A DNA stretch of 60,638 nucleotides, taken from assembly GCA_949155905.1 (NCBI GenBank), contig CASCWU010000008.1, forward strand, positions 1-60,638, written 5' to 3'. This stretch comes from an uncultured Lachnospiraceae bacterium (GTDB taxonomy: Bacteria > Bacillota > Clostridia > Lachnospirales > Lachnospiraceae). A program made the position numbers and the translations under genes. The first letter of the stretch is position 1. Each line of letters begins with the position of its first letter. Below the pieces are notes generated by a model, which saw only the letters and a list, made by a program, of their open reading frames with translations, made no database searches and was not told the DNA's origin. Below, in pieces: positions 43,720 to 57,478 of this stretch.

Positions 43720-46700
43720 CTATTTCGTCTGAAGTTCTTCTATGGAAATCCAGTGAGCATACAAGGTCTGCTTGCCTGCTGCCGTTATCTCCACTTCACT
43801 TTGCTCCGTAATAAGAGTCCCGCCGACCTCTGCCGTATACCAGCCCAGGAAATAATAGCCGCTCCTGGAAACAGCCGGCAATGCCGAATAATAGCTTCCT
43901 GGCATAACTGTCTTTCTGGTAAATTTTGGCGTCGCACCATTTCCGTCAAAGATAACGGCAATCGTATTCTCCTCCCAGTGAGCATATAAGCAGGTGGTGG
44001 CCGGTGTCGAAAGAATCGTCTCAGAGGTTATCTTTTCTCCGCCGTTCGGCGCTGTATACCAGCCTAAAAAGCGTTCCTCTCCCTTCGTCGGAACAGGCAA
44101 ATCCCCATACTTCCCTTCGTATGCAATCCTGACAGAAGCAGTCTCTACGATCCCTCCCTGGGCATCTAGTAACACCTCATAGGTATTTGGCGTCCAATGG
44201 GCAAAATAGGTTTTAGCCGAAGTAATCTCTGAGATATCCTGACCTGTAATCTCTGTCTTTCCGGTTTTGGTTGTATACCACCCATCAAAGGTATAGTATT
44301 CTCTCGTCGGAGTAGGCAATGTCCCATACATCGTCCCATATATCACCGAATATGGCTGTATCACCGGTTCTCCGCCATTGGCATGAAAGATAACGATAGC
44401 CTCCTTTGGAATCCAGTGAGCATACAGCGTATGCGGATCCCCTGATGCCACCTCTTCATCTCCTGTCACCTGTCTGCCTCCCTCTGGTTCTGTATAATAG
44501 CCTGCAAACATACTGCCCTTTTTACTCGGCAGAGGTATACTGGCCGATCCGCCATAGCTTCCCTCGTAACGCGGGGAGCGGCTGGTAGAATAGATAATCG
44601 AAGAAGTATTTGTTTCCGGATTTCGTATTACCATCGAGCCTCCGTTAAAATCATACTTTACCTTGATTTTTGCCTTTTCCCAAAGAGCATATACTGTATG
44701 ACTCTTCATCTCTTCTACATCCGTTGCAGAAGCAAGCTTCTTACCACCCTCCTTCGCCGTATACCAGCCTAAAAACTCATAGCCATACCGTTGCGGAACA
44801 GGCAAATTCCCATAGTTCTCTCCATAAAATACCTGTCTGGAGCCTTCCTCACAGCTTCCCTTGTTTGCATCAAAGGAAACTGTCGATTCTATTCCCTTCC
44901 ACTTGGCATAGAGGGTTTGCTTTGCTGTCACCTCAACCGTTGTACCGGCCTCTATCTGTTTTCCGGTGCTTCCGCTGCTCGTAAACCACCCCTGGAACAC
45001 ATAGCCGGTTCGTTCTGGAGTAGGAAGGCTTCCATAGCTCTGTCCATACGTTACGATTTTGCTCAAAGACGGCTTTTTGAATCCGCCCTCCCAAACGCGT
45101 CCGCCATTGGCATGAAAAACGATCTCCGGAGTAAGGACTTCCCAATGGGCATACAGGGTTTTAGCAGAAGCCCAATCTACTATAGAAGTGGACAATATCT
45201 GTACTCCCCCCGATTGTGCCGTAAACCAGCCAAGGAACTGATACCCGGTACGGCTCGGTGTTGCCATGCTGCTAAATTTTTCTCCATAATAAACGGTCTT
45301 GCTCTTTGTAGAACAACTTCCTCCATTTGCCTGATATGTCACCTTAGAAGAAACGCCTTTCCAATGTGCCGTCAATTCTGTCGGCACCAACAGATCTACC
45401 TTACTGGAAGCCGTCACCCTTGTATTTCCCAGATACCATCCCTGGAAGGTATAATTCGTTCGTTTCGGAGTCGGCAGTGTTCCATAAGTAGAACCATATT
45501 TCACGGTTTTCGCCGAAGAAGATACCGAACCGCCGTTTCCGTTGAAAAGAACTGTCGTTTCCAAGCCTTCCCAATGAGCATATAAAATATCTGCTGCATC
45601 AACGCTTGTCACTTTCTTTGCACTGGAGGAGGTTGAGGTATACCAACCAGTAAAACGATATCCTTCCCGCTCTGGAGTTGGAAAGGCAGCATAGCTCGTT
45701 CCCTTCGTTACACTGGTAGAATCCAAATCCACCTTCCCGCCGTTTGCCTTAAAAGTGACGGTATAGCTTTGATCATTCCAATGGGCATACAGTTTTTTCC
45801 CATAAGACGCATCCACCTTCATAGTAGAGGTAATCTTCCGTCCGCCGTTCTTTTCCGTATACCAGCCCTTAAATGTATGCCCGGACCAGGTTGGCGTTGG
45901 CAATGTTCCATACTTTTCTCCATGTTCTCTTAACCGATGCGTTTCCGGACTAGTACCACCGTTGGCATCAAACCAAAGATGATATACCTTCTTTTGCCAA
46001 TGAGCATACAGGGTATGAGCCTCCCTTACTGATACTACCGTATCCGAGGTTATTTTCGTTCCTCCGCTCTCCGTGGTATACCAGCCAAGAAAATCATAGC
46101 CTTCCCGCTCTGGTATCGGCAGTCCTTTATAGGTTCCCTGATAATATACAACGTAATGCGTACCGGAAACCTCTCCGCCCATCGGCGCCAACGTCAGTTG
46201 AATAGTGGCGCCTGTCCAAGAAGCATAAAGAGTATGATTTCCTGCTGTTGTCACCTTTGTGCTGGAGCTTACTTTTTTTCCATCCTCGGTACGCCATCCC
46301 GTAAAGGTATAGTTTGCTTTCTCTAACCCCGGTAAATCTCCATAGGATTCTCCAAACACCACAGAAACAGTCTTACTGCCGCTAGATGACCCCGGACCAG
46401 TATCCCGCAACGTCACCTGATAGGTATTTCCTTCCCAATGTGCATACAAAATTTCTGAGGTCGTAGCCTCTATTACTGTCTCCTCTGTCACTTCTTCTCC
46501 GGTACTGCCAGTAGAGGTATACCACCCAGTAAAATGATACCCCTCCCGTTTTGGCACCGGCAGGCTTCCGTATTTATCTCCATAGGAGTATACCCGTTCT
46601 GTCGTACTGACCCATTCGTGATCGACCAATATTTCCCCACCGTTTGCACGAAAGGTAATCGTTGGCTTTCTAATCTTCCAATGTGCATATAATGTACTGT

Positions 46701-48270
46701 CGGTCAGCTTCCAGCAGCTTGTATCATTCGTTATCAGCGTCCCGCCGGATGCCTTCGTATACCAGCCTGTAAAGTCATATCCCGTCCGCTTCGGCGTTGG
46801 CAGCGTCCCGTACTCTCCTCCATAATAAATCAGCTTGCTGTCCTTTGACACCGTTCCCTCCTGCGGATCAAAGGTGACAGTGGTTTCCTCCCCCTTCCAC
46901 TGCGCATATAACGTAAGCTCTCCATCTAAGGTCAGTTTACTAGTTGCCTTCACCGGAGTCTCACTGTTGATGCTGGTAAACCAGCCCTGGAACACATAAT
47001 GCTCCAGCTCTGGAACCGGAAGCTCTCCGTAGGTTTCCCCGTAAGCGATAAACCTGCTTTTTGGCTCCGACATAGTACCCCCGTTCGGATCAAATGTCAC
47101 CCGATATTCATTCATCCTCCAATGCGCATACAGAGTCTGATTCGCGGACAGATCTACGACGTCTGTCGCAAATACCTGTTTTCCTCCCTTCTCTTCCGTA
47201 AACCAGCCTAAAAATACCGCATGATCCTGATAATTCGGGGTCGGCAGTGTTCCATAGATGCCGTCGTTTTTCACGGTCTTGCTTTTTGGAGAAACACTCC
47301 CTTCCCCAGCTGAAAATGTCACCTGATATCCTTCCGAAATCCATTGAGCATATAGGACATGGTTTGATTTTGCTGTCACAACCGTATCCTTCTCTACAAT
47401 AGTTCCGCCATCCGCTGTGAGAGCCCATCCGTCAAAGGTATACCCTTCTCTGACCGGGGTCGGCAATGTTCCATAAGTTTCACTGACAACAACCTCCTTC
47501 GTCTGAGCAGGCATTATTCCTCCCTGCGGATCAAAGCTGACGGTGCTGACGGCTCCACGCCATCTGGCATAGAGCATCGTCGGAGAAAGGGTTGTTATGG
47601 TATCATTGGCTCTTACTTCGCTTCCCCCATATGCTTCCGTATACCAGCCTAAAAAGGTACAGCCTGGCTTCTCCGCCCTTGGCAGCGCTCCATATGCCTG
47701 GCCATATTGAACCATTTTCCGCTCCTGTGTCACCCTACCGCCGTTCGCGTGAAAATAAACGGCATAGGAAAGCGGATTCCAACGGGCATATAAGCTATGC
47801 TCTCCTGCTACTGATACGATATCCGTCTCTACCACACGTTGACCGCCCTGCGGCAATGTATACCAGCCAATAAATTCATAGCCCTTTCTTGTTGGAACAG
47901 GCATCGTGCCATAGGCTTCCCCATAGGTGACAGCCGACGTTTTTTTACTTACCGTTCCTCCTATTGCTTCCCAGACTACCTTTCCCTCTTTGGTAGTCCA
48001 ACGAGCATAAAGCCGGATCGTATCCTCGCTGGCCACCCTCGTTTCTGCCGAAACCTTTACTCCGCCAGTTTTTGCCGTATACCAGCCAGCAAAAAGACAT
48101 CCGCTCTTGCTTGGCTCCGGCAATGTCCCATATACCTGTCCAAACAGCACCGTCCGTTCAGTCTCCTTCACAGTTCCGCCATCTGGATCAAACAATAAGG
48201 TCGTCGGCTTGGCTGCCCAAACCGCATACAGCGCAGACACACCTTCCTCATAGCAATCGGTCTCCGTCAA
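43720..48270 (-). pseudogene. B-repeat surface protein, C-terminal part cut off by an integrated element
   Basis: About 1,500 codons encoding some 21 InlB-type B repeats (Listeria-Bacteroides repeat, PF09479), each about 70 residues with GWYT near the middle and LYAHW or a variant at the end. The frame enters from the element junction near 48262 without a proper start or signal sequence; only a TTG is available. The rest of the gene lies at 58288-60594 on the other side of the element. The C-terminus ends right after the last repeat (ISIEELQTK) with no LPxTG or other anchor. Originally a very large adhesin or matrix protein; now not expressed as such. Confidence 0.8.
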
Positions 48271-48403: not shown

Positions 48404-49454
48404 TCAGGTGGGTTGATAGATGGCCTTCTCCATGGCAGCGGCCATGTCCAGCTTGGAATTTTTATCGACGTGGGCGTAGAAATTCAGCGTGGTGGACGCG
48501 CTGCCGTGGCCCAGCCACTGTTGTACCTGGACGATGGAAAAGCCCATGTTTAGCAGATTGCTGGCCGCACTATGCCTCAAGTCATGAAGTCTGACACTAG
48601 GTAAGCTGCTTTTTGAAATGATGTTATGGAACGTGCGGGACAGATAGTTGGGTGATATAACCGTTCCGTCTGCCCAGGTGCATACATAGTCGCTCTGTAT
48701 GTACCCTTTGCCGAGAGCAGCCTGTATGCGCTCCTGGTCGCGTTTCTGTGACCGTCAGAGTGCGGGTCTCGAAGTCGATATGCTCCCATTTCAGCCCAAG
48801 CACTTCACTCCTGCGAAAGCCATACACAGCGCATAGATTAACCGGCAGCTCTACCACGTTGCCAATGAACAGCGCCAGCAGGGTGTCTATCTCCGTCGGG
48901 TTTAGGAAACTTGCGTTGTATCGCTCGGCCTTTGGCTTTCTCGCGGTAGCAGCGGGATTATACTGGATTAGACTATCATGTACCGCGTCATTCAGCGCCT
49001 TGGATATCACCTGATGGTGGTGCCGGATAGACATAGCCGACAGCGTACCTTTACCGTTCTGTTTGCTCCCTGGCTGTTGTTTGGCCTGGTAATACGCGTC
49101 CAGGTCGGTGGGTTTCAATTCTTGCAACAATACCGGGTGCTGTTTGAAATACGGCACTATGTGATTAGCGACCATCGCTTGGTATGTGCGGTAGGTATTG
49201 GGCTTGATGTTCGCCCCAGCCCGCTTGATCCAGCGCTCTAGGTAATCAGCAAAGGTTAGCTGGCAGTAAGGCACTTCCTTAGCCTCCCACTCGTCTATCA
49301 AGGTGCGCAGAATCTTTTCAGCGTTACGTTTGTTCCCTCTCAGCGGTAGGTCGGTGGAGAACCACTTTTGCTTGCGCTTTCCGTTCTCGTCATGGAGATT
49401 CAGGACGGCATAATATTTGCCGCCTTTCGTTGTTACAAAGCCCGTGATTGCCAT
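48404..49454 (-). pseudogene. Element integrase (tyrosine recombinase), frameshifted
   Basis: The N-terminal part reads from 49454 through the arm-binding and core-binding domains to the catalytic arginine in YGFRRSEVLGLKWEHID and TLTVT. Then the frame is lost: the rest continues in another frame from about 48745 as QERIQAALGKGYIQSDYV and on to LHDLRHSAASNLLNMG, LGHGSAS and the nucleophile Tyr in LNFYAHVD, ending at 48404. Compared with relatives, the strand pair carrying the catalytic lysine is missing at the joint, so a deletion of some tens of bases is likely. The element probably cannot move with its own enzyme. Confidence 0.8.
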
Positions 49455-49485
49455 TTATTTACTCCTTTCGAGGCTTTCACACGCT

Positions 49486-49707
49486 TTACCTGATGGATTC
49501 CATTATAGCAGGTTTCGCGCCCTTATTCAAGCCCAAGAAGTCAATCACGCTGGCTTTCGGAATTATATACCTCTTCCCCACCCTCACCGTAGAGATTGCC
49601 CCACTTTGCAGTAGGCTATAAGCGGCATTTCTGCCGATGTGGAGCATTGTCTGTAAATCATCTACTGATACGACATCCGGGTAATTGCTAAACATAGCAT
49701 TTCCCAT
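49486..49707 (-). CDS. Excisionase-type small DNA-binding protein
   Basis: A 73-residue protein with a MerR-like winged helix: VSVDDLQTMLHIGRNAAYSLLQSGAI, then VRVGKRYIIPKASVIDFLG. This is the pattern of excisionases of Tn916-like and related elements, which bend DNA at the ends for excision. The ATG at 49707 has AAAGGAAG upstream; the longer frame to 49860 has no ribosome binding site. It lies 32 bp before the integrase, as usual. Confidence 0.8.
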   Translation of the reverse strand: MGNAMFSNYPDVVSVDDLQTMLHIGRNAAYSLLQSGAISTVRVGKRYIIPKASVIDFLGLNKGAKPAIMESIR

Positions 49708-49901
49708 ATGGCATACTTCCTTTACTTTCGGTATAAAGTGCATCACACAAGCCCACGTTGGCGCGTGGCGCGATACCAGCGAATGGTGACAACGGCTGAC
49801 TAAACCGTCCAGGCCAATCCCCCAGTACCCCCCTTTGACCCTGCGGTACGGGCGGTGCATTACTTGTGCGCTGCTATGAGGTTTTCAAGGTGCTATGTAG
49901 T

Positions 49902-50373: not shown

Positions 50374-50412
50374 AAAAAGACCGAACCAGCCTCACGGCTG
50401 ACCCGATCTTTC
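50374..50412 (-). terminator. Terminator of the peptide/ADP-ribosylation operon
   Basis: Minus strand AAAGATCGGGTCAGCC pairs across a four-base loop with GGCTGGTTCGGTCTTT and is followed by TTTTT, about 50 bp after the sirtuin stop. Confidence 0.8.
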
Positions 50413-50463: not shown

Positions 50464-51312
50464 CTAATAATGCTTAAAAAGTGCCTCCCCAATATCCCCA
50501 TCTATACAGATGGAACGCCCTGCGATTTCCTCCGGGCACACAGCTTGCCCCATGTTCACACACGCGTAAACCGCCCGAGGGTTCTCCGCCGTCATCTGCC
50601 AGAACGGGTACTTGATAATCCCCGGCGTGTTGTACCCCACCCCCAGTTCTAAACGCAGCACTCGACCGGCCCGGTGAGACTTGACGAAATCGCTATACCG
50701 TTCCGCAGCCTTTAGCCACCCCTCATCCTCCACAAAAGTATCGTCTGCCCGGAGATTCATACTCATGGGCGCGCCGCATTTGGGGCACCTCGGGATAAGC
50801 CTGGACGGTATTTTCATGCCCTCCTGCTCCTCCACCATGCGGCGCATGACATCCTCATTGTCATAGGTGTCGATATTGCACGGCCTGCTGCACTGGAACA
50901 GCCCATAGTCCCCTTGGGTGTAGAACAGCCGCTTTTTGTCGAAACCCGCTTTCTGGAAGCAATGGTCTACGTTAGTGGTCAGCACAAAATAATCCTTGTC
51001 CTTCACCAGTTCAAAAAGCTGGCTGTATACCGGCTTTGGCGGGTTCATATAGCGGTTGACACAGACAAACCGGCTCCAGTAAGCCCAGCGTTCCTCCGGG
51101 GTTTTGTAGGGGTAGAAGCCGCCGGAGTACATATCATGGAAGCCATACTTTTCCTCAAAATCCGAGAAGTATCTCTGAAAGCGCTCCCCGTCATAGGTAA
51201 ACCCCGCCGAGGCAGACAGCCCCGCTCCCGCGCCGATGAGCACAGTGTCCGCCTGTTCCAACGCGGCCCCTAACCGCTCAATTTCCGCCGAGCAATTCCC
51301 GGTAGATCTCAT
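50464..51312 (-). CDS. Class M sirtuin (SirTM), protein ADP-ribosyltransferase
   Basis: NAD-dependent enzyme of 282 residues. The nucleotide motif is GAGAGLSASAG (27-37), followed by TTNVDHCFQKAG with N114, and TQGDYG with Q133 where deacetylase sirtuins have the catalytic histidine. The N-to-Q distance of 19 equals that of the N118/Q137 pair I recall from the streptococcal SirTM. A zinc ribbon is formed by C141, C145, C176 and C179, and GVGYNTPGIIKYPF closes the site. SirTM proteins mono-ADP-ribosylate rather than deacetylate. It is last in the operon and overlaps the macrodomain gene by 35 bases; the ATG at 51312 is chosen for its AGGGACT-type site. Confidence 0.88.
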   Translation of the reverse strand: MRSTGNCSAEIERLGAALEQADTVLIGAGAGLSASAGFTYDGERFQRYFSDFEEKYGFHDMYSGGFYPYKTPEERWAYWSRFVCVNRYMNPPKPVYSQLFELVKDKDYFVLTTNVDHCFQKAGFDKKRLFYTQGDYGLFQCSRPCNIDTYDNEDVMRRMVEEQEGMKIPSRLIPRCPKCGAPMSMNLRADDTFVEDEGWLKAAERYSDFVKSHRAGRVLRLELGVGYNTPGIIKYPFWQMTAENPRAVYACVNMGQAVCPEEIAGRSICIDGDIGEALFKHY

Positions 51313-52042
51313 AGTCCCTGTCCTTGAACACATTAAAAATCACCTCCATACCGCCCCGATATTTCCGTACCGTTTCCACCGCGATTTCAGCCGCCCTCCG
51401 GTTTGGAAAGCGAAAGACCCCGGTGGAAACGCAGCAGAAGGCCACGCTCTTTATGCCCTTCTTTTGAGCGAGTTCCAGGCAGGAGCCGTAGCAATCTTCC
51501 AGCAGCTTTTCATCCTGCGGGGTGACCTCACCGCTGACGATCGGCCCTACCGTATGCAGAATGGAATCGCACGGCAGATTGTAAGCGCCAGTCATTTTGG
51601 CTGTGCCGGTAGGCTCCTCGTGTCCCTGTTTTCCCATGATCTCAGCACATTCCAGCCTCAGCTGCACTCCGGCAAAGGTGTGGATGGCATTGTCTATGCA
51701 GCCATGCCTCGGCATGAAGCACCCCAGCATCTGGGGATTGGCGGCATTGACGATGGCCCCGCACTTCAGCGTGGTGATGTCCCCTTGCCAAAGATAGACG
51801 CCCGGCTGGACAGGCTGCAGGCTCCGGTGATCCGTGATCCCTTTGCGGCAAATTTCCTCCTGCAAATACGCGTCCTGCACCTGCAAAAATTCACCGCTGA
51901 CAGGCATAGGTGGTCGCACGTTGAACAGGGCGCGGAGAAGCTGATTTTGTGCATCCATGCCTTTGGGTATCTCCAGGTCCCCGCCCCGCTCGGCCGCCAG
52001 CGCCTGTATCAGCCAAAGGCGGCGCTCTTCTTGTGTGCTCAT
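51278..52042 (-). CDS. Zinc macrodomain, protein ADP-ribose hydrolase
   Basis: Removes ADP-ribose from modified proteins. The macrodomain (about 80-250) has QGDITTLKCGAIVNAANPQ, the zinc-site segment LGCFMPRHGCIDNAIH (C108, H113, C115), TGTAKMTGAYNLPC, HTVGP and STGVFRFPNRRAAEIA. The helical N-terminal domain (1-78) is that of the macrodomains encoded beside SirTM. Its start overlaps the nitroreductase stop by four bases and it overlaps the sirtuin gene, so writer and eraser are produced together. Confidence 0.9.
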   Translation of the reverse strand: MSTQEERRLWLIQALAAERGGDLEIPKGMDAQNQLLRALFNVRPPMPVSGEFLQVQDAYLQEEICRKGITDHRSLQPVQPGVYLWQGDITTLKCGAIVNAANPQMLGCFMPRHGCIDNAIHTFAGVQLRLECAEIMGKQGHEEPTGTAKMTGAYNLPCDSILHTVGPIVSGEVTPQDEKLLEDCYGSCLELAQKKGIKSVAFCCVSTGVFRFPNRRAAEIAVETVRKYRGGMEVIFNVFKDRDYEIYRELLGGN

Positions 52043-52623
52043 GCGCGGATGATCCTCCCCTCCTTCCGGGGCTTATCAAGGGGCTTTGGCCCCTCCCGAT
52101 ACCCCAGCAGCAGGTGCCCCACCGGCGTCATATCCTCCGGGACGCCCCATTTCTGCCGCAGCTCCCGGCCATAGTCCGTGTCAAAGGTTTTCTCGGCCCT
52201 GCCGATATAGCAGGCCCCCAGCCCCAGGAAGTGGGCGGCCAGCCACATATTTTCCGCCATGAAAGCTACATCTTCGTGGGCATAGTACCCATCACGCACA
52301 AAGATGGTCAGCACAGTGGGCGCGCCGTAGAAGGCGTCCTTGATGCTCAAATCGTCCCGGATGCTGGGCTGTTCCGCCGACACAGGCCGGATCTTCTCAG
52401 GGTCGGCTGTCTGCACCATATCCATAGAGCGGTTCAGCCTGCCCAGCCGGAGGTTGACCTCCTTATCCTGGCAGACCACAATACGGGAATACTGGTTGTT
52501 CCCCGCGCTGGGGGCGTACAGCCCGGCCTGCAGGATCTGCTCCAACTTGCTTTCCTCAACTTGCCTGTCCTGAAACTTACGGATGGCGTGGCGGGTGATG
52601 ATTTTCTCTATCATTTCGTTCAT
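52039..52623 (-). CDS. Nitroreductase-family flavoprotein
   Basis: FMN-dependent oxidoreductase of 194 residues. ITRHAIRKFQDRQVEE at the start and APSAGNNQYSRIVV bind the flavin phosphate; NMWLAAHFLGLGACYIGRAE and VGHLLLGYREG complete the family pattern. Such enzymes reduce quinones, nitro groups or peptide thiazolines (or oxidise the latter). GGAGG precedes the ATG by five bases. Sitting between the lectin-fold and macrodomain genes, it may act on the peptide product or on the electrophile sensed by the HxlR regulator; both are guesses. Confidence 0.85.
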   Translation of the reverse strand: MNEMIEKIITRHAIRKFQDRQVEESKLEQILQAGLYAPSAGNNQYSRIVVCQDKEVNLRLGRLNRSMDMVQTADPEKIRPVSAEQPSIRDDLSIKDAFYGAPTVLTIFVRDGYYAHEDVAFMAENMWLAAHFLGLGACYIGRAEKTFDTDYGRELRQKWGVPEDMTPVGHLLLGYREGPKPLDKPRKEGRIIRA

Positions 52624-52633
52624 GGCGTCCTCC

Positions 52634-53242
52634 TTAATCCATACAGGTCACGTTGATCTCGGAGACAAACGCCTCCGTGCCAACATCTACAAAAATACCT
52701 ACAGAGCCATGCTGGCCTGCACCATGTTTCATGTTCTCCACAGAAAGGGCCAATTTCCCATTCAGATAAAACGCGGCCCGGTCATCCTCGATTACAGCTT
52801 TCATGGTGAACCACTCATCCAACGCAAAATCTACCGGCGCTTCATATTTTATAATACCAAATTCCCGGAAATAGTCGAACGTGTATCCAGGGTAGGAAAA
52901 ATACTGGCATCCATGGGCTTTCCGCACCAGATCTGTGCATCCCCGTCCATTGGTGGGCCGCACGTAGAATGATTCAAATTCCGAATCGGCCTCGTTGGCC
53001 CGGAACACGATGCCGATGAATCCCCGGGCAAAGTCCGGGGCATCCGGCAGAAGGCGGCTCAGCATCCTGCACTCGATCGTGCCGTTATGGAAGAGCAGTC
53101 CATTCGCTCGGGCATATGTGTTTTGGTCATACTGGTCGATCTTGTCTTTCTTCACCACCCGCAGGGCCGGTTTGCCGTCCAGCTCTACGGTATCTGTCGC
53201 GGTATGCACCGCCGTAAAATTTTCTTTCTTTATATCTATCAT
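52634..53242 (-). CDS. Concanavalin-type (LamG/DUF1080-like) single-domain protein
   Basis: A 202-residue protein with a jelly-roll fold pattern: alternating strands such as GLLFHNGTIECRML, GFIGIVFRANEADSEFESFYVRP, WFTMKAVIEDDRAAFYLNG and HGSVGIFVDVGTEAFVSEI. It resembles 3-keto-disaccharide hydrolase and LamG families, but no catalytic residues can be assigned. No signal peptide. The ATG at 53242 follows the radical SAM stop by two bases and has AAGGAGA upstream. A peptide- or glycan-binding role in the cytoplasm is possible; I do not know a precedent in this operon type. Confidence 0.7.
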   Translation of the reverse strand: MIDIKKENFTAVHTATDTVELDGKPALRVVKKDKIDQYDQNTYARANGLLFHNGTIECRMLSRLLPDAPDFARGFIGIVFRANEADSEFESFYVRPTNGRGCTDLVRKAHGCQYFSYPGYTFDYFREFGIIKYEAPVDFALDEWFTMKAVIEDDRAAFYLNGKLALSVENMKHGAGQHGSVGIFVDVGTEAFVSEINVTCMD

Positions 53243-53244
53243 GT

Positions 53245-54276
53245 TCAAATCTCCTTCCAGCATTGTGGGTCCGCCCCATAAAAGTTCCCTTCTCTGCCGC
53301 TGGCAACGGCGGGGCACCCCCGGCACCAGGCCAGCAGCTCGCATTTCTGGCACTTCTCAAACTTCGTGTACTCCCGGTACCGCTCCATCTCACAGACCCA
53401 CACATCCGCCAGCCTGTCCTCGAACACGTTTGCCACCCTGCTGTTCTGCACCCGGCGGCAGGCGTACACATCGCCGTCAGGCAGGATGGTCAGATGGCAG
53501 TTCCCACAGTTGCAGCCGCCGTAGATCATGCCGGGCTTGGTGGTGTCCGGTATTACAAATTCCCCGGTCTCATACTCATAGAGCGTCCAAAGATGGTCTT
53601 TTTTGTTGAAATATGTTTCACAGCCCCGGGCTTTGTACTCCTTGAATTTCTTATCACACTCGGCTAAAAGCTGGCGATAGCGCATGGGCTCGATACCCAC
53701 ATCCTTTTCCTCGCTGGTGGGGCAGTAGCGGGCGAAGGCGAACACATCGGCCTTGTGCTCCACCACTGTGTCGATGATGGCGGGAATCTCGTCAAGATTC
53801 GTGCCGGAGACGGTAGTCATAATGACTGCTCTAATTCCGGCTTTTTTGATGGTCTGTATCTTTTCCAGTGTGATGTCAAAGCTGCCCTGCTTGCGGAACC
53901 AATCGTGGGTCTCCCGCATCCCGTCAAGGGAGAGCTGGTACTTTTCACAGCCCAGAGATCTGAACCGGGCGCATACCTCGTCCGTCAGATGGAAGGGGTT
54001 GCCTAAAATAGTGAAGGGGGCCCCTTGGGATTTCATCAGCTCCAGCAGCCGCCAGAAATCCGGGTGGAGGATGGGGTCGCCACCGGTGATGTAGAAGTAG
54101 GGGGAACGGCCATGCACCTCGCATAAGTCCAGACAGTTGTAGAAGGTGTCCTCCATCTGCTTGAAGGTCATGCTGTCCAGCCTTTTGCAGGCGTTTTCGG
54201 AGAAAATGTAGCAGTGCTGGCAGCGTTGGTCGCACTCGTCGGTGATGTGCCATTGAAAAGCGAAATAAGGTTTCAT
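53245..54276 (-). CDS. Radical SAM/SPASM peptide maturase
   Basis: A 343-residue radical SAM enzyme. The SAM cluster is bound by C15, C19 and C22 (CDQRCQHC), with the GGDP motif at 65-68. The SPASM region holds nine cysteines (255, 257, 260, 273, 309, 312, 318, 321, 339), enough for two extra clusters, as in enzymes that form thioether or C-C links in ribosomal peptides. The gene lies 96 bp after an Ala-Cys-Gly repeat peptide gene. I recall a TIGRFAM class called the ACGX system for such a pair; this needs an HMM check. Product chemistry is unknown. Confidence 0.88.
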   Translation of the reverse strand: MKPYFAFQWHITDECDQRCQHCYIFSENACKRLDSMTFKQMEDTFYNCLDLCEVHGRSPYFYITGGDPILHPDFWRLLELMKSQGAPFTILGNPFHLTDEVCARFRSLGCEKYQLSLDGMRETHDWFRKQGSFDITLEKIQTIKKAGIRAVIMTTVSGTNLDEIPAIIDTVVEHKADVFAFARYCPTSEEKDVGIEPMRYRQLLAECDKKFKEYKARGCETYFNKKDHLWTLYEYETGEFVIPDTTKPGMIYGGCNCGNCHLTILPDGDVYACRRVQNSRVANVFEDRLADVWVCEMERYREYTKFEKCQKCELLAWCRGCPAVASGREGNFYGADPQCWKEI

Positions 54277-54372
54277 AGTGTCTGTCCTTTCTATGTTGAA
54301 CCGGGTTTACCGGGTGACTGTCGGGTGTTCCCGGCCCGAAGGCTGGGAACACGATGGGCATGGAACGCGAGA

Positions 54373-54558
54373 TTACTTGCCGTCCCCAGCGCCGCAGGCA
54401 GAGCCGCAAGCAGAGGGCTTTTCCTCTTTCTTCTCGTCCCCAGCGCCACAAGCGGAACCGCAGGCGGCAGGCTTTTCTTCCTTCTTCTCATCGCCCGCGC
54501 CACAAGCAGAAGCCACCTTCTTTTCCTCGTTCCATTCAGCCAGATTTGCCAGTGCCAT
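54373..54558 (-). CDS. Ala-Cys-Gly repeat (ACGX-type) precursor peptide
   Basis: A 61-residue peptide. After a short leader-like start (MALANLAEWNEEKKVAS) come five ACG triplets with cysteines at 19, 33, 37, 51 and 55. The repeating unit is 18 residues: ACGSACGAGD followed by EKKEEKP. The composition (only Ala, Cys, Gly, Ser, Asp, Glu, Lys, Pro after residue 17) and the regular cysteines point to a substrate for modification. GGAGG lies 12 bases before the ATG. First gene of the operon, directly ahead of a radical SAM/SPASM gene. No double-Gly or other cleavage site and no transporter are visible. Confidence 0.85.
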   Translation of the reverse strand: MALANLAEWNEEKKVASACGAGDEKKEEKPAACGSACGAGDEKKEEKPSACGSACGAGDGK

Positions 54559-54636
54559 GATAGGTACGTACCTCCGTTGGTTTATTCAGGGAAACCTGCG
54601 GCGGAGCCGCAGTGTTTTTTGCCCCCTGTGATTCCC

Positions 54637-54664
54637 ATTATACCGATTTTTCCGAAGCGTACAA
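54637..54664 (-). promoter_or_regulatory. Predicted promoter of the peptide operon
   Basis: Minus strand -35 TTGTAC (54659-54664), 16-base spacer, -10 TATAAT (54637-54642), giving a leader of about 75 nt before the peptide ATG. Confidence 0.6.
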
Positions 54665-54686
54665 GTACGCACTTTTTTGTGGGGTA

Positions 54687-54702
54687 GTTACATAAAAGTA
54701 AC
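54687..54702. promoter_or_regulatory. Candidate HxlR operator
   Basis: Perfect inverted repeat GTTAC-ATAAAA-GTAAC lies between the two divergent promoters, 22 bases from one -35 box and 8 from the other. Size and layout suit a dimeric winged-helix regulator of the HxlR/YodB type. Confidence 0.5.
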
Positions 54703-54710
54703 CCACCCTC

Positions 54711-54739
54711 TTGACAGTGTGGGGCCAATACAGTACAAT
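54711..54739 (+). promoter_or_regulatory. Predicted promoter of the HxlR gene
   Basis: TTGACA (54711-54716), 17 bases and TACAAT (54734-54739), a near-perfect sigma-A promoter about 40 bases before the ATG at 54781. Confidence 0.7.
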
Positions 54740-54780
54740 TAGAGTGTAACATGACATTTTGAAGTATTGGAGGCTGATAT

Positions 54781-55113
54781 ATGCTGACCAAAGAAGAACT
54801 CCCCGAGTGCCCAGTGGCCACCACCGTCCAGCTCATCGGAAGCAAATGGAAACTTTTGATTATCCGCAACCTGCGTATGCGCCCTTGGCGGTTCAACGAA
54901 TTGCAGAAGAATTTGGAGGGAATCAGTCAGAAGGTACTGACGGATTCCCTGCGGGCGCTGGAAGCCGATGGCCTTGTCACCCGCACGGTCTATGCGGAGG
55001 TGCCGCCCCGGGTGGAGTATACCCTTAGCGATCTGGGCGAGACCATACGGCCCATTCTGGATGTTATGGAGCAGTGGGGCGCGGGGTATAAGGAGATGGC
55101 TAAAGGCAAGTAA
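54781..55113 (+). CDS. HxlR-family transcriptional regulator
   Basis: Winged-helix regulator of 110 residues. ECPVATTVQLIGSKWKLLI is the family signature, with C10 at the position used by HxlR, YodB and HypR to sense thiol-reactive electrophiles; FNELQKNLEGISQKVLTDSLRAL is the recognition region and RVEYTLSDLG the wing. GGAGG precedes the ATG. Transcribed away from the peptide operon, with a candidate operator between the two promoters, so it likely controls both. The signal is inferred from family members (quinones, aldehydes, diamide). Confidence 0.9.
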   Translation: MLTKEELPECPVATTVQLIGSKWKLLIIRNLRMRPWRFNELQKNLEGISQKVLTDSLRALEADGLVTRTVYAEVPPRVEYTLSDLGETIRPILDVMEQWGAGYKEMAKGK

Positions 55114-55148: not shown

Positions 55149-55469
55149 CTATTTCCCTATAACTACTTGCTCAATATGCTGCACAGAGTTCCGTAACTTA
55201 ATTACGTTCTCATAATAAGTGGCCTCGTCAATCAGCCCGGTAGCGTTAGCGACAAAAGCCAGCTGATTCAGATTGTTGCCTATCTCTTTCAACTCGCGGG
55301 TCATAGCAAAGTAATCGGCAGGCGGCGATTCTTTAGGCTCATACCCAACAATAAGCTGACGAACATAAGCCGACTTTGTCAACCCACAAGACTTAGCTCG
55401 TCTAGTAATCCTCTTGTACTCTTTCTCACTCAGCCGAAGACTGAGCTTTTTCGTTCTACTGATGTCGAT
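55149..55469 (-). CDS. mobC: MobC-like relaxosome accessory protein, start unclear
   Basis: The frame reads LSLRLSEKEYKRITRRAK (a ribbon-helix-helix-like start), GLTKSAYVRQLIVGY and the MobC signature ELKEIGNNLNQLAFVAN. It helps a relaxase open the transfer origin. The frame is open from 55505 but has no ATG or GTG; AAAGGAG points to an ATC at 55469, and the only usual start codon is a TTG at 55382, which would drop the DNA-binding part. The start may be mutated. A relaxase gene normally follows; here the HxlR/peptide cargo follows instead. Confidence 0.6.
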   Translation of the reverse strand: MDISRTKKLSLRLSEKEYKRITRRAKSCGLTKSAYVRQLIVGYEPKESPPADYFAMTRELKEIGNNLNQLAFVANATGLIDEATYYENVIKLRNSVQHIEQVVIGK

Positions 55470-55537
55470 ATGAACATCTCCTTTCTGCCGCGCGACATTG
55501 CGGCTCTAAAACCGCCGGGGCGTATATGAATGGGGTC

Positions 55538-55710
55538 GTAGGGGCAGCGCCCCTACCCAGCCGCGCAAGCGGGCATTTGAGGGCATGTGTCGGACAGAAT
55601 GTCTGACACTTTGTCCTACAAATGCGATGCTGGCTCGTACTTAAAACTCAATAATTTTCGTTTTAACTACTTTTGGGCCTACGGCCCAATTTAGCGGCTT
55701 TCAGCCGCTT
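55538..55710. other. Probable oriT region with nested hairpins
   Basis: Upstream of mobC lie GTAGGGGC-AGC-GCCCCTAC (55538-55556), the near-palindrome GTGTCGGACA-GAA-TGTCTGACAC with one mismatch (55587-55609), TTGGGCC-TAC-GGCCCAA (55673-55689) and AGCGGC-TTTCA-GCCGCT (55693 on). The position next to a mobC gene suggests the transfer origin; the last hairpins may terminate the gene ending at 55709. Confidence 0.45.
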
Positions 55711-56335
55711 ATAAATCATCCCCTAAGCAGAAATCTTCGGCGCTTTCGCTGCCAAAAAGAATCACGCTTAGCGTGGCAATAGCCCGGTTTATGTTCTTGT
55801 AAAACGTCGAATGTTCAATCGCAAACCGCTCCTCAATAGCGGATATACTTATCGGGGTATCGCAGAGATAACGGGCATAAATGAGCTTGTAACCCCGCTG
55901 AGCGGAAGGGTTGGTTTCGTTTTTGCACATCTCTTTGTAACAATCCAGAGCCGCATTTAAGCGCGCCCATAGCACCTGATTCGAGGCAGTTAAAAGCGAC
56001 ATTGAGGTCAATTTCTGATTCCTGACGCTTTCCTCCTTCTCCATCAGGCGCTGATATTCGTAATCCTCCAGCAGTTTCAGGTTGTGTTCCATGCCGCATT
56101 TCAAGGAAACTTTCAGGTTGCGGTAGTTCTTCAGCAGCTTTTTTGTGACAATAATCCTCGAATTTTTCTGATTTTTACGCTGCTCTTTCGCAACCGTTTC
56201 AGCCTTTTTCTTGGAGAATCCGGCTACCAAAGCCAGCACTTTTTCGGCCTGCTGTGGTGTCCAGCCGGTAATCAAAGCTAGTTCTTTAGCGGTATCTTTG
56301 TACTCGTTTCCCAGGGTATCATACTTGTTTTTCAT
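55709..56335 (-). CDS. Element protein of unknown function (ArpU-like C-terminal HTH)
   Basis: A 208-residue protein without a clear family. The first 60 residues are helical (LALITGWTPQQAEKVLALVAG), the middle is Lys/Glu rich, and the C-terminal 60 residues (SISAIEERFAIEHSTFYKN, then INRAIATLSVILFG) look like the HTH found in late regulators of the ArpU/RinA kind. The ATG at 56335 has GGGAGGA upstream. It follows the replication initiator by 20 bases, so a regulatory role in element replication or transfer is likely but unproven. Confidence 0.6.
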   Translation of the reverse strand: MKNKYDTLGNEYKDTAKELALITGWTPQQAEKVLALVAGFSKKKAETVAKEQRKNQKNSRIIVTKKLLKNYRNLKVSLKCGMEHNLKLLEDYEYQRLMEKEESVRNQKLTSMSLLTASNQVLWARLNAALDCYKEMCKNETNPSAQRGYKLIYARYLCDTPISISAIEERFAIEHSTFYKNINRAIATLSVILFGSESAEDFCLGDDL

Positions 56336-56355
56336 GGTTATATCCTCCCACAAAT

Positions 56356-57261
56356 TCAGTTATTAGCGTTGTAAATTGCTTGTGTTGCGGTACTGCATGA
56401 GGCCGGAGCGTTGAACAAAACTGCAAGCAAATACCTGTGTGGATTATGTACCGGCCCAGCTTTCCCAAGGTTGTCCAGCGCATAGGAAACGTGCTCATAG
56501 GTCAATGAGCGCATACGCTTGCGCACAAGGGCAGTCGGAAATACTGTGCCTCCAATCTTCATTTCCGGCCCGTCCCGGCAGAGAGTTTCCGTGATGATCT
56601 CCACAACTTCATCCGCCAAATCTTCGTCGTAATTCTCACAAAGTACCGTGTACTCGATTTGCGAACGCACGTCAGCCTGCAATTCTTCAACGTCTTTCTC
56701 CGTCATTTTGTTTACTTCACACTCCCTATCCCCTGGAAGGAAGGTAGGAAGGATAAGGTCTTTATTCTCAAGTTCTTTACTATTAAGTTCTATAGATGAA
56801 AGATTTTTAACGTCCAGAAGTTCATTTTCTTTACTGCAAGAAGTCAAATTTCCTGACTTGCAGAGGTTAATATCCGGCGATTCTTGAGCACCAGTGTCAC
56901 CAGAAGTAAAGTCCTTTATGTAGATTCTGGCGGGTTTTCCCTGCCCCTGTCGCACCTTATCAATCAGGCCAATTTCAGCTAATTGTTTGGTGAATTTGAT
57001 GACCGTGGGATGTGAGCGTAGGATGTCCTTTTCCATCTGCTCCACGGTGTAAATGATGAAAAGCCGACCGTTTTCATCACTGAACTTGTCCTCATGTTGA
57101 GCAGATAGACCGGCTCTCTCCAGCATTTTTGCGTACAAAATGACAGCGCCATAGTCCAACCCGGAGAACGCCGGATTCTCCAAAAGCTCCTTTGGAACCG
57201 AGAGATAGCGGTACCTTCTGGCGGTCTGAGGACGCATATATTCCAGTTCAGTTTTGTCCAA
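56356..57261 (-). CDS. RepA_N-type replication initiator
   Basis: A 301-residue protein with the N-terminal winged-helix RepA_N domain (YRYLSVPKELLENPAF, YGAVILYAKMLERAGLS, FIIYTVEQMEKDI, KQLAEIGLIDKVRQG) and a C-terminal domain (after about 180) seen in element initiators, ending in MRSLTYEHVSYALDNLGKA and NPHRYLLAVLFN. It should start autonomous replication of the excised circle. The TTG at 57261 is chosen because AAAGGAG lies eight bases before it; no ATG matches the family start. Common in integrative elements of Clostridia. Confidence 0.82.
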   Translation of the reverse strand: MDKTELEYMRPQTARRYRYLSVPKELLENPAFSGLDYGAVILYAKMLERAGLSAQHEDKFSDENGRLFIIYTVEQMEKDILRSHPTVIKFTKQLAEIGLIDKVRQGQGKPARIYIKDFTSGDTGAQESPDINLCKSGNLTSCSKENELLDVKNLSSIELNSKELENKDLILPTFLPGDRECEVNKMTEKDVEELQADVRSQIEYTVLCENYDEDLADEVVEIITETLCRDGPEMKIGGTVFPTALVRKRMRSLTYEHVSYALDNLGKAGPVHNPHRYLLAVLFNAPASCSTATQAIYNANN

Positions 57262-57283
57262 ATTATCATCTCCTTTTCTCTTG

Positions 57284-57478
57284 TCAACGATAAATTTTGC
57301 CGGTGAGCTTGTCCATAAGCACCACCCTTTCCGCAATCGAAAAACCGGATAATTCAGCCAAGCGCCTCAATTCACAAATCAATTCCTTGGCTTTTTTGTG
57401 GCGCTCCTGCATGATATTGTCCAATGCCTGCCCGGATGTTGGGTCGCAGTAGTGCTCTGAATTTCTGTATATCTTCAC
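57284..57478 (-). CDS. Small conserved element protein
   Basis: A 64-residue protein, MKIYRNSEHYCDPTSGQAL at the start followed by a charged helix (QERHKKAKELICELRRLAEL). I recall similar short proteins (K-Y-x-x-HY-x-DPT-x-G) next to RepA_N genes of related elements. Function unknown. It precedes the initiator by 23 bases. Confidence 0.6.
   Translation of the reverse strand: MKIYRNSEHYCDPTSGQALDNIMQERHKKAKELICELRRLAELSGFSIAERVVLMDKLTGKIYR

Follow-up and report, generated by a model that had tools for sequence, protein, structure and literature searches.

What does a bacterium gain from a gene cluster that places a peptide-modifying radical S-adenosylmethionine (SAM) enzyme beside a writer and an eraser of ADP-ribose? 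The question is raised by a stretch of 60,638 nucleotides from an uncultured Lachnospiraceae bacterium (contig CASCWU010000008.1, assembly GCA_949155905.1; the whole stretch is called the window from here on), in which a divergently transcribed HxlR regulator gene faces a set of genes for a small ACGX-repeat peptide, a radical SAM/SPASM protein, a nitroreductase, a zinc macrodomain and a class M sirtuin (SirTM), referred to as the cassette. The cassette is an HxlR-linked redox cluster whose products include a Cys-Gly peptide and the enzyme presumed to modify it, and there is good support for regarding it as a redox-stress operon to which an ADP-ribosylation pair has been added as an accessory. 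Judging from its sequences, the recurring cluster is probably an electrophile- or thiol-stress operon whose modified peptide would act as an intracellular thiol buffer or redox carrier, switched by SirTM and the macrodomain, a reading to which we assign a probability of roughly 0.55. Gene content, gene order, residue conservation, the operator motif and the co-occurrence of the genes are established directly.

All seven genes of the window locus lie inside 50464-55113, with the peptide, radical SAM, jelly-roll, nitroreductase, macrodomain and SirTM genes on the minus strand, facing the plus-strand HxlR gene. The regulator, of HxlR/DUF24 type, has 110 amino acids and a single cysteine, Cys10 (54781..55113, plus strand; PF01638, 109 bits against a cut-off of 20.8). 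The peptide gene encodes 61 amino acids with five Cys-Gly motifs (54373..54558, minus strand; TIGR04341, 63.7 bits, cut-off 28) and is followed by an intergenic stem-loop that fills the gap to the next gene (54277..54372, minus strand; RNAfold -26.5 kcal/mol). Next come the radical SAM/SPASM peptide maturase of the ACGX system (53245..54276, minus strand; TIGR04340, 602 bits, cut-off 400; domains PF04055 and PF13186), a jelly-roll protein that is taken up below, and a nitroreductase-family flavoprotein (52039..52623, minus strand; PF00881, 88.7 bits, cut-off 23.5). The series ends with a zinc macrodomain of the protein-ADP-ribose hydrolase type (51278..52042, minus strand; NF003163, 336.2 bits, cut-off 272; 257 bits with structure 8rsi and 243 bits with 5kiv) and SirTM (50464..51333, minus strand; 243.7 bits with 5a3a, the structure of the Streptococcus pyogenes SirTM). 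According to the coordinates, the gaps measure 96 bp between peptide and radical SAM genes, 2 bp between radical SAM and jelly-roll genes and 10 bp between jelly-roll and nitroreductase genes, while nitroreductase and macrodomain genes overlap by 4 bp and macrodomain and SirTM genes by 56 bp if the first ATG is used. An earlier note, made from the letters of this DNA alone, had described six minus-strand genes with overlaps or short gaps facing an HxlR gene, in agreement with these coordinates, strands and families; its title spoke of a fused operon, which taken literally does not hold, as the genes are adjacent and unfused.

A chance neighbourhood was rejected as an explanation, since the gene order recurs across dozens of records and the genes co-occur in an even sample of genomes. 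A collection of 84,980 species was scanned with an alignment of ten radical SAM proteins, yielding at least 538 confirmed relatives, and the best 80 of these, which form the set closest to the window, were kept with flanks of up to 10 kb. Downstream genes were counted at the 59 of these loci that extend at least 4 kb beyond the radical SAM gene, the 21 shorter ones being dropped and both a viral locus (L111) and the window being excluded. At the 59 loci, a nitroreductase is encoded 41 times and a zinc-dehydrogenase/quinone-reductase-like (QOR-like) protein 17 times, with either one at 56; U0, which comprises a PNPOx split barrel and two [4Fe-4S] motifs, is found at 31, SirTM at 33 and the macrodomain at 24, 23 of which also carry SirTM. 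The HxlR gene is divergent and upstream in 59 of the 70 best-80-derived loci with at least 1.5 kb of upstream sequence, and the peptide was found in 61 of the 73 with at least 0.7 kb; in several of the 12 peptide-negative loci, the raw sequence nonetheless contains such a gene.

Because these loci are the closest relatives of the window, an even draw of 398 genomes of the phylum, source genome included, was added as a second sample. Nine of them carry an ACGX radical SAM protein above the cut-off, and a SirTM-like gene (E <= 1e-15) is present in 23, some of the matches being distant sirtuins of 26-37% identity. The two coincide strongly: a SirTM-like gene occurs in 7/9 ACGX genomes vs 16/389 others (Fisher p 2.8e-8), in 6/8 when the source genome is left out (p 3.7e-7) and, at the stricter E <= 1e-60, in 5/9 vs 9/389 (p 2.9e-6). 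ACGX and SirTM genes share one locus in five of the nine genomes (G000, G067, G220, G315 and G337, the SirTM gene of G315 being cut by the contig end), and the remaining four loci combine peptide, radical SAM and nitroreductase genes without SirTM. Presence in 33/59 related loci and in 5/9 loci of the even sample therefore makes SirTM a frequent accessory and no constant part of the cassette. The note had named, as an observation that would speak against it, a peptide/radical SAM pair found mostly without SirTM and macrodomain, with the genes on separate transcripts; on these counts the outcome is borderline, yet the pair is not mostly without SirTM, and on the transcripts the analysis covered gene spacing and consensus scans. 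Its proposal of a cassette linking ACGX peptide maturation to SirTM and the macrodomain beside a Cys-bearing HxlR thus stands as to the recurring operon-like cluster and the redox setting, and gives way as to SirTM, which is accessory only. Targeted searches in the class of G232 (2 of 46 genomes) and in the order of G220 (3 of 35) yielded loci already known and none further, and a scan of the viral_contigs set returned a single distant ACGX locus (L111, 59%).

The regulator and the promoter that it faces are strongly conserved. Cys10 is present in 63/63 cassette HxlR proteins (the window is included in this residue table and in those of 40 SirTMs and 32 macrodomains, as well as among the 57 intergenic regions, 66 peptides and 64 stem-loops discussed below) and is the sole cysteine in 57 of them, so that the N-terminal redox cysteine expected of such a sensor is in place. 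The window protein remains below the cut-offs of the RrpA/RrpB models, scoring 112.8 of 175 bits with NF047364 and 83.2 of 185 with NF047367. The DUF24 regulators of Bacillus subtilis use an N-terminal cysteine to detect quinones, diamide and HOCl and control a nitroreductase gene, according to passages of PMC6943732. Between the HxlR and peptide genes of the window lie a predicted palindromic operator, site P2, AGTGCGTACTT (54663..54673, minus strand), which occupies the cassette promoter's -35, the inverted repeat upstream of it, site P1, GTTAC-N6-GTAAC (54687..54702), and a predicted -10 hexamer TATAAT (54637..54642, minus strand), the latter two read from the sequence. The P2 palindrome with at most one mismatch recurs in 56/57 HxlR-peptide intergenic regions vs 0.1 in shuffles, and P1 with at most two mismatches in 52/57 vs 5.5; P1 sits 13 bp upstream of P2 in 47 regions. 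Moreover, in 50/56 regions a hexamer that differs from TATAAT by no more than one base is located 18-19 bp past the ACTTGT position, and the palindrome therefore overlies the -35 region of the predicted cassette promoter.

The window holds one operator site, its shuffles averaging 0.51 at one mismatch, and the 12 further matches that 1.26 Mb of ACGX loci contain away from the cassette promoter are of chance order. Exact 13-base sites number 15 in the 398 genomes, of which five head ACGX cassettes with SirTM and three more adjoin an HxlR gene. In the source genome, a second exact 13-base operator (locus L173, contig C66) heads a nitroreductase reading frame; this frame looks interrupted, and an HxlR gene and a paralogue of the jelly-roll protein are close by. 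At four loci (L032, L055, L071 and L105), a gene for an Rrf2-family regulator (U11) lies upstream of the cassette, and HxlR was not found at three of these (L055, L071 and L105).

Both proteins of the peptide branch belong to the ACGX system, the radical SAM protein and the peptide each exceeding the cut-off of its model. In a set of 66 peptides gathered by likeness to the window peptide, which also includes that of L111, 448/449 cysteines are followed by glycine; the N-terminus reads MALSNL[FSA]GW in 35/66 and the C-terminus CGAGDK in 35/66. A stem-loop follows the peptide gene with z below -2 in 58/64 loci (single-base shuffles). As to the chemistry of the enzyme, the nearest other NCBIfam model is that of SbtM, TIGR04082, at 166.5 bits, far below its cut-off of 350, followed by a model at 106.6 bits, and the cut-offs of sactipeptide/ranthipeptide maturases are missed by a wide interval (StsB 65.4 of 625 bits, PapB 55.7 of 340). 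SbtM converts cysteines to thiooxazoles, as described in part of PMC11002830, and its likeness is taken as a lead on the radical SAM chemistry only, because its cut-off is not reached. Fusions of the radical SAM protein to a nitroreductase exist as four near-identical database proteins (P0082, P0088, P0103 and P0112), and at L079 the matches to both share one reading frame. Ten aligned ACGX radical SAM proteins have an invariant CxCxxC at residues 255-260, ahead of the usual SPASM cysteines.

The ADP-ribosylation pair retains its catalytic residues throughout. The window SirTM matches the general sirtuin model PF02146 weakly (17.6 bits, cut-off 24); aligned to 5a3a, it retains the exchange of the catalytic His for Gln, and its Asn/Gln/Arg partners correspond to N118, Q137 and R192 of SpySirTM, which identifies it as a class M sirtuin. 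Among cassette SirTMs, N121 is present in 39/40 (with one gap) and Q140 and R195 in 40/40. Likewise, the macrodomains are invariant at C108, H113, C115, D117 and H121 in 32/32, and the C-x4-H-x-C loop and the Dx3H motif, aligned to 8rsi and 5kiv, place them among the zinc macrodomains. Published passages on these enzymes describe three zinc ligands, situated in the catalytic loop, together with the Dx3H motif, and give no ligand numbers; which of the residues above would bind zinc is a reading of the alignment. An extra zinc-loop cysteine was considered as a hallmark of ACGX-linked macrodomains and rejected, being also present in non-ACGX loci. A DUF5131 radical-SAM-like protein is encoded 3' of the cassette in eight loci (L034, L044, L054, L070, L087, L092, L093 and L096), in six of them immediately after SirTM.

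From the families present, the following course of events can be proposed. HxlR, through Cys10, would sense quinone, aldehyde or disulfide stress and release or activate the promoter, presumably by way of the palindrome, and the stem-loop behind the peptide gene may permit an excess of peptide over enzyme. The radical SAM enzyme would act on the Cys-Gly motifs, perhaps producing thiooxazoles as does its nearest named relative, SbtM, and the modified peptide would remain intracellular, serving as thiol buffer or redox carrier, with nitroreductase, QOR-like or PNPOx-ferredoxin proteins recycling or complementing the thiols. Lastly, SirTM would switch the peptide off and the macrodomain would switch it on, by reversible ADP-ribosylation. 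The weakest step, drawn by analogy and rather doubtful, is that SirTM may modify a product of the operon it belongs to, most probably the peptide, in the way that lipoyl-GcvH-L is marked by its SirTM in the known operon. According to excerpts of PMC11490716, GcvH-L is the only known SirTM target, no hydrolases other than the zinc macrodomains (Zn-Macros) are known to cleave Cys-ADP-ribose, and the targets of SirTM/Zn-Macro pairs beyond the GcvH-L operon are unknown. In its full form, the idea that SirTM writes and the zinc macrodomain erases ADP-ribose on the radical-SAM-modified Cys-Gly-repeat peptide, as a stand-in for the lipoyl domain, is unlikely on balance.

Several observations tell against the proposed course of events, and three of them (the loci that lack SirTM, the likeness of the peptides, and the loci with SirTM and no peptide) favour an alternative that is a serious contender, if short of even odds: SirTM and the macrodomain may only be co-regulated with the peptide, as members of the same HxlR regulon whose target is a general cellular protein or a flavoprotein, the ACGX peptide system being an effector of its own, frequently encoded in the same operon. 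SirTM is missing from 26/59 loci; 10/33 SirTM-positive loci show no macrodomain within the downstream span considered; and two of the seven genomes with both genes (G232 and G326) carry SirTM on a different contig. On the radical SAM tree, SirTM presence requires 14 changes (shuffled mean 19.7), indicating that it was gained or lost often, and SirTM and HxlR distances are uncorrelated (r 0.055, p 0.35). The peptides of SirTM-positive (31) and SirTM-negative (22) loci are alike in length, cysteine and acidic content, for which reason peptide make-up was rejected as a marker of SirTM, and the window's own stem-loop is weak relative to shuffles (z -1.6). As to the operator, no member of the query families lies near 7/15 exact sites, and a reversed control pattern gave 12 matches in the same 398 genomes. 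Specifically, in 18 SirTM stretches without ACGX genes (187,515 bases), three operator matches with at most one mismatch were found (L142, L149 and L151), which is the chance level (3.0 expected); because the count equals chance, these matches are supported by their surroundings, not by their number. All three loci share the cassette promoter layout and lack the peptide: the upstream inverted repeat, 13 bp off the operator, has one mismatch in L149 and two in L142, and takes by eye the form GTATC-N6-GATAC in L151, where the search pattern missed it; a TATAAT-like hexamer follows 19-20 bp past the operator; and an HxlR gene is found next to the operator in L149 and L151, and at a distance of about 2.5 kb in L142. 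SirTM can therefore serve the regulon without the peptide. Against mere co-regulation stands the history of the proteins. In a tree of 58 SirTMs, whose branches are long and whose core has low support, the 42 from ACGX loci and the 16 others are separated by 3 changes (shuffled mean 14), and a single clade of ACGX-linked SirTMs is not rejected by the approximately unbiased (AU) test (p 0.743), the constrained tree having outscored the free search. Mantel comparisons give correlated distances for radical SAM and SirTM (r 0.41, 40 loci), radical SAM and macrodomain (0.53, 32) and SirTM and macrodomain (0.69, 29), each at p 0.0005. Furthermore, the SirTM that has been characterised has its target encoded in the operon to which it belongs, as set out in parts of PMC11490716 and PMC4518038. 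The note's suggestion that ADP-ribosylation gates the peptide hence keeps its redox-operon setting, whereas a strict link is opposed by the likeness of the peptides and by the three peptide-less loci.

A target other than the peptide within the locus is also conceivable. U0, the PNPOx-ferredoxin protein, tracks SirTM presence (23/33 SirTM-positive vs 8/26 SirTM-negative loci, p 0.004), and U0 or PNPOx proteins adjoin SirTM outside ACGX loci (L142, L147 and L151), so that SirTM might mark U0, or else a different flavoprotein encoded there, and switch electron transfer to the thiols; U0 is nonetheless missing from 10/33 SirTM-positive loci (L054 of Agathobaculum sp. Marseille-P7918, for instance, has peptide, radical SAM, nitroreductase, macrodomain and SirTM genes and lacks U0, which L047 and L106 carry) and from the window, and the source genome holds matches to the ferredoxin part only and no full PNPOx-ferredoxin protein, which leaves this option improbable. 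The SirTM/macrodomain pairs of L142, L147 and L151, which stand alongside PNPOx or U0 flavoproteins with no ACGX genes, may form a sister class of redox loci. Secretion is common among radical SAM/SPASM peptide systems of the sactipeptide or ranthipeptide type, and by likeness to them the product could be a secreted, bacteriocin-like member of the ribosomally synthesized and post-translationally modified peptides (RiPPs), with the redox genes conferring resistance or self-protection. This is very improbable: the peptide has no signal sequence by eye, the regulator and enzymes point to thiol stress, and U0, U1 and U3, the steady same-strand downstream families among the unlabelled ones in at least three loci, are not transporters or proteases, annotation having covered these three and the upstream Rrf2 regulator U11. 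A stress operon whose peptide would stay in the cell and be switched by the ADP-ribosylation pair is the reading that we prefer.

Some features are peculiar to the window copy. The jelly-roll (lectin/CBM66-like) protein of 202 amino acids (52634..53242, minus strand) lies outside the common cassette. It had been noted as a lectin-fold protein; the kind of fold is confirmed by an AlphaFold model (mean predicted local distance difference test score, pLDDT, 84.9) that matches CBM66 and other concanavalin-type jelly rolls, and its start is corrected to 53242 in preference to 53353, because the longer open reading frame (ORF) enters the radical SAM gene. Early weak matches at other loci were spurious, caused by the over-long ORF, and disappeared once the query was trimmed; with the trimmed query it occurs at 0/80 other loci, and a place in the cassette core was rejected, while the protein has 2553 relatives of its own. 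A terminator-like hairpin 3' of SirTM (50377..50393, minus strand) comes from a consensus scan alone, in a region with 10 such sites vs 4.3 in shuffles. The note's proposal that the cassette travels on a mobile element accords, for this copy, with its flanks: a two-ORF split tyrosine-integrase region with an excisionase-like gene on one side (48404-49860), MobC and RepA_N/DUF6017 genes on the other (55149-57336). Farther out, a 1516-residue ORF (43720-48270) has 20 matches to the Listeria-Bacteroides repeat (PF09479). Elsewhere, two cassette records (L074 and L084) are titled as distant taxa, Candidatus Brocadia and Bacteroides, for which assembly contamination or mislabelling is likelier than transfer.

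The families involved are known, and the joined operon, the regulator-operator pair and their recurrence appear undescribed in the literature searched. As the note had supposed, no report of the combination was found there among the matches listed, in open-licence full texts with subscription journals mostly outside, nor any paper on the ACGX radical-SAM peptide family in the same texts. The cassette offers a short, testable list of candidate SirTM targets that share an operon whose promoter and regulator are predicted, and it does so in many Clostridia-type species. If the proposal is true, the ACGX family would gain a physiological setting in thiol or electrophile stress, RiPP maturation would be tied to ADP-ribosylation signalling, and the peptide would be the first SirTM target besides GcvH-L as well as, among ribosomal peptide products, the first to be gated by ADP-ribosylation in a reversible manner.

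Four known systems invite comparison with the cassette. The ACGX system of NCBIfam (TIGR04340 and TIGR04341) is matched by both its models, whose description lines name the radical SAM protein and the peptide only and leave the HxlR, flavoenzyme and SirTM/macrodomain partners unnamed, while the SbtM thio(seleno)oxazole system (TIGR04082), known here from parts of PMC11002830 and PMC12538549, is the nearest other model for the enzyme at a score far under its cut-off. The YodB/CatR/HypR thiol-stress regulons of B. subtilis resemble the cassette in their DUF24 regulators with an N-terminal cysteine and in having the nitroreductase YodC among their targets; no peptide, radical SAM or ADP-ribosylation genes are named in the passages of PMC6943732 concerned. 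The closest parallel is the extended SirTM operon of Staphylococcus aureus and S. pyogenes, which, in the sections of PMC4518038 and PMC11490716 devoted to it, comprises GcvH-L, LplA2, Zn-Macro, SirTM, OYE and LLM, GcvH-L being a sulfur carrier lipoylated by the ligase of the operon. Common to both are a SirTM and a Zn-Macro whose catalytic residues agree, oxidoreductases of flavin type, a small protein that bears sulfur together with the enzyme that modifies it, overlapping genes and a redox-stress context. GcvH-L and LplA are absent from the window cassette in Pfam and NCBIfam family scans, and the best GCV_H match in the source genome (93.8% complete) scores 20.9 bits, under the Pfam cut-off of 22.2; its one BPL_LplA_LipB protein is encoded away from the cassette. 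An operon of the GcvH-L type itself was dropped as a reading, the cassette having neither gene. In their place stand the Cys-Gly-repeat peptide and the radical SAM enzyme, nitroreductase, QOR-like or PNPOx-ferredoxin proteins replace OYE and LLM, and an HxlR regulator with a conserved operator is present, so that the cassette can be described as a variant of the SirTM/Zn-macrodomain redox operon in which a Cys-Gly peptide takes the place of lipoyl-GcvH-L.

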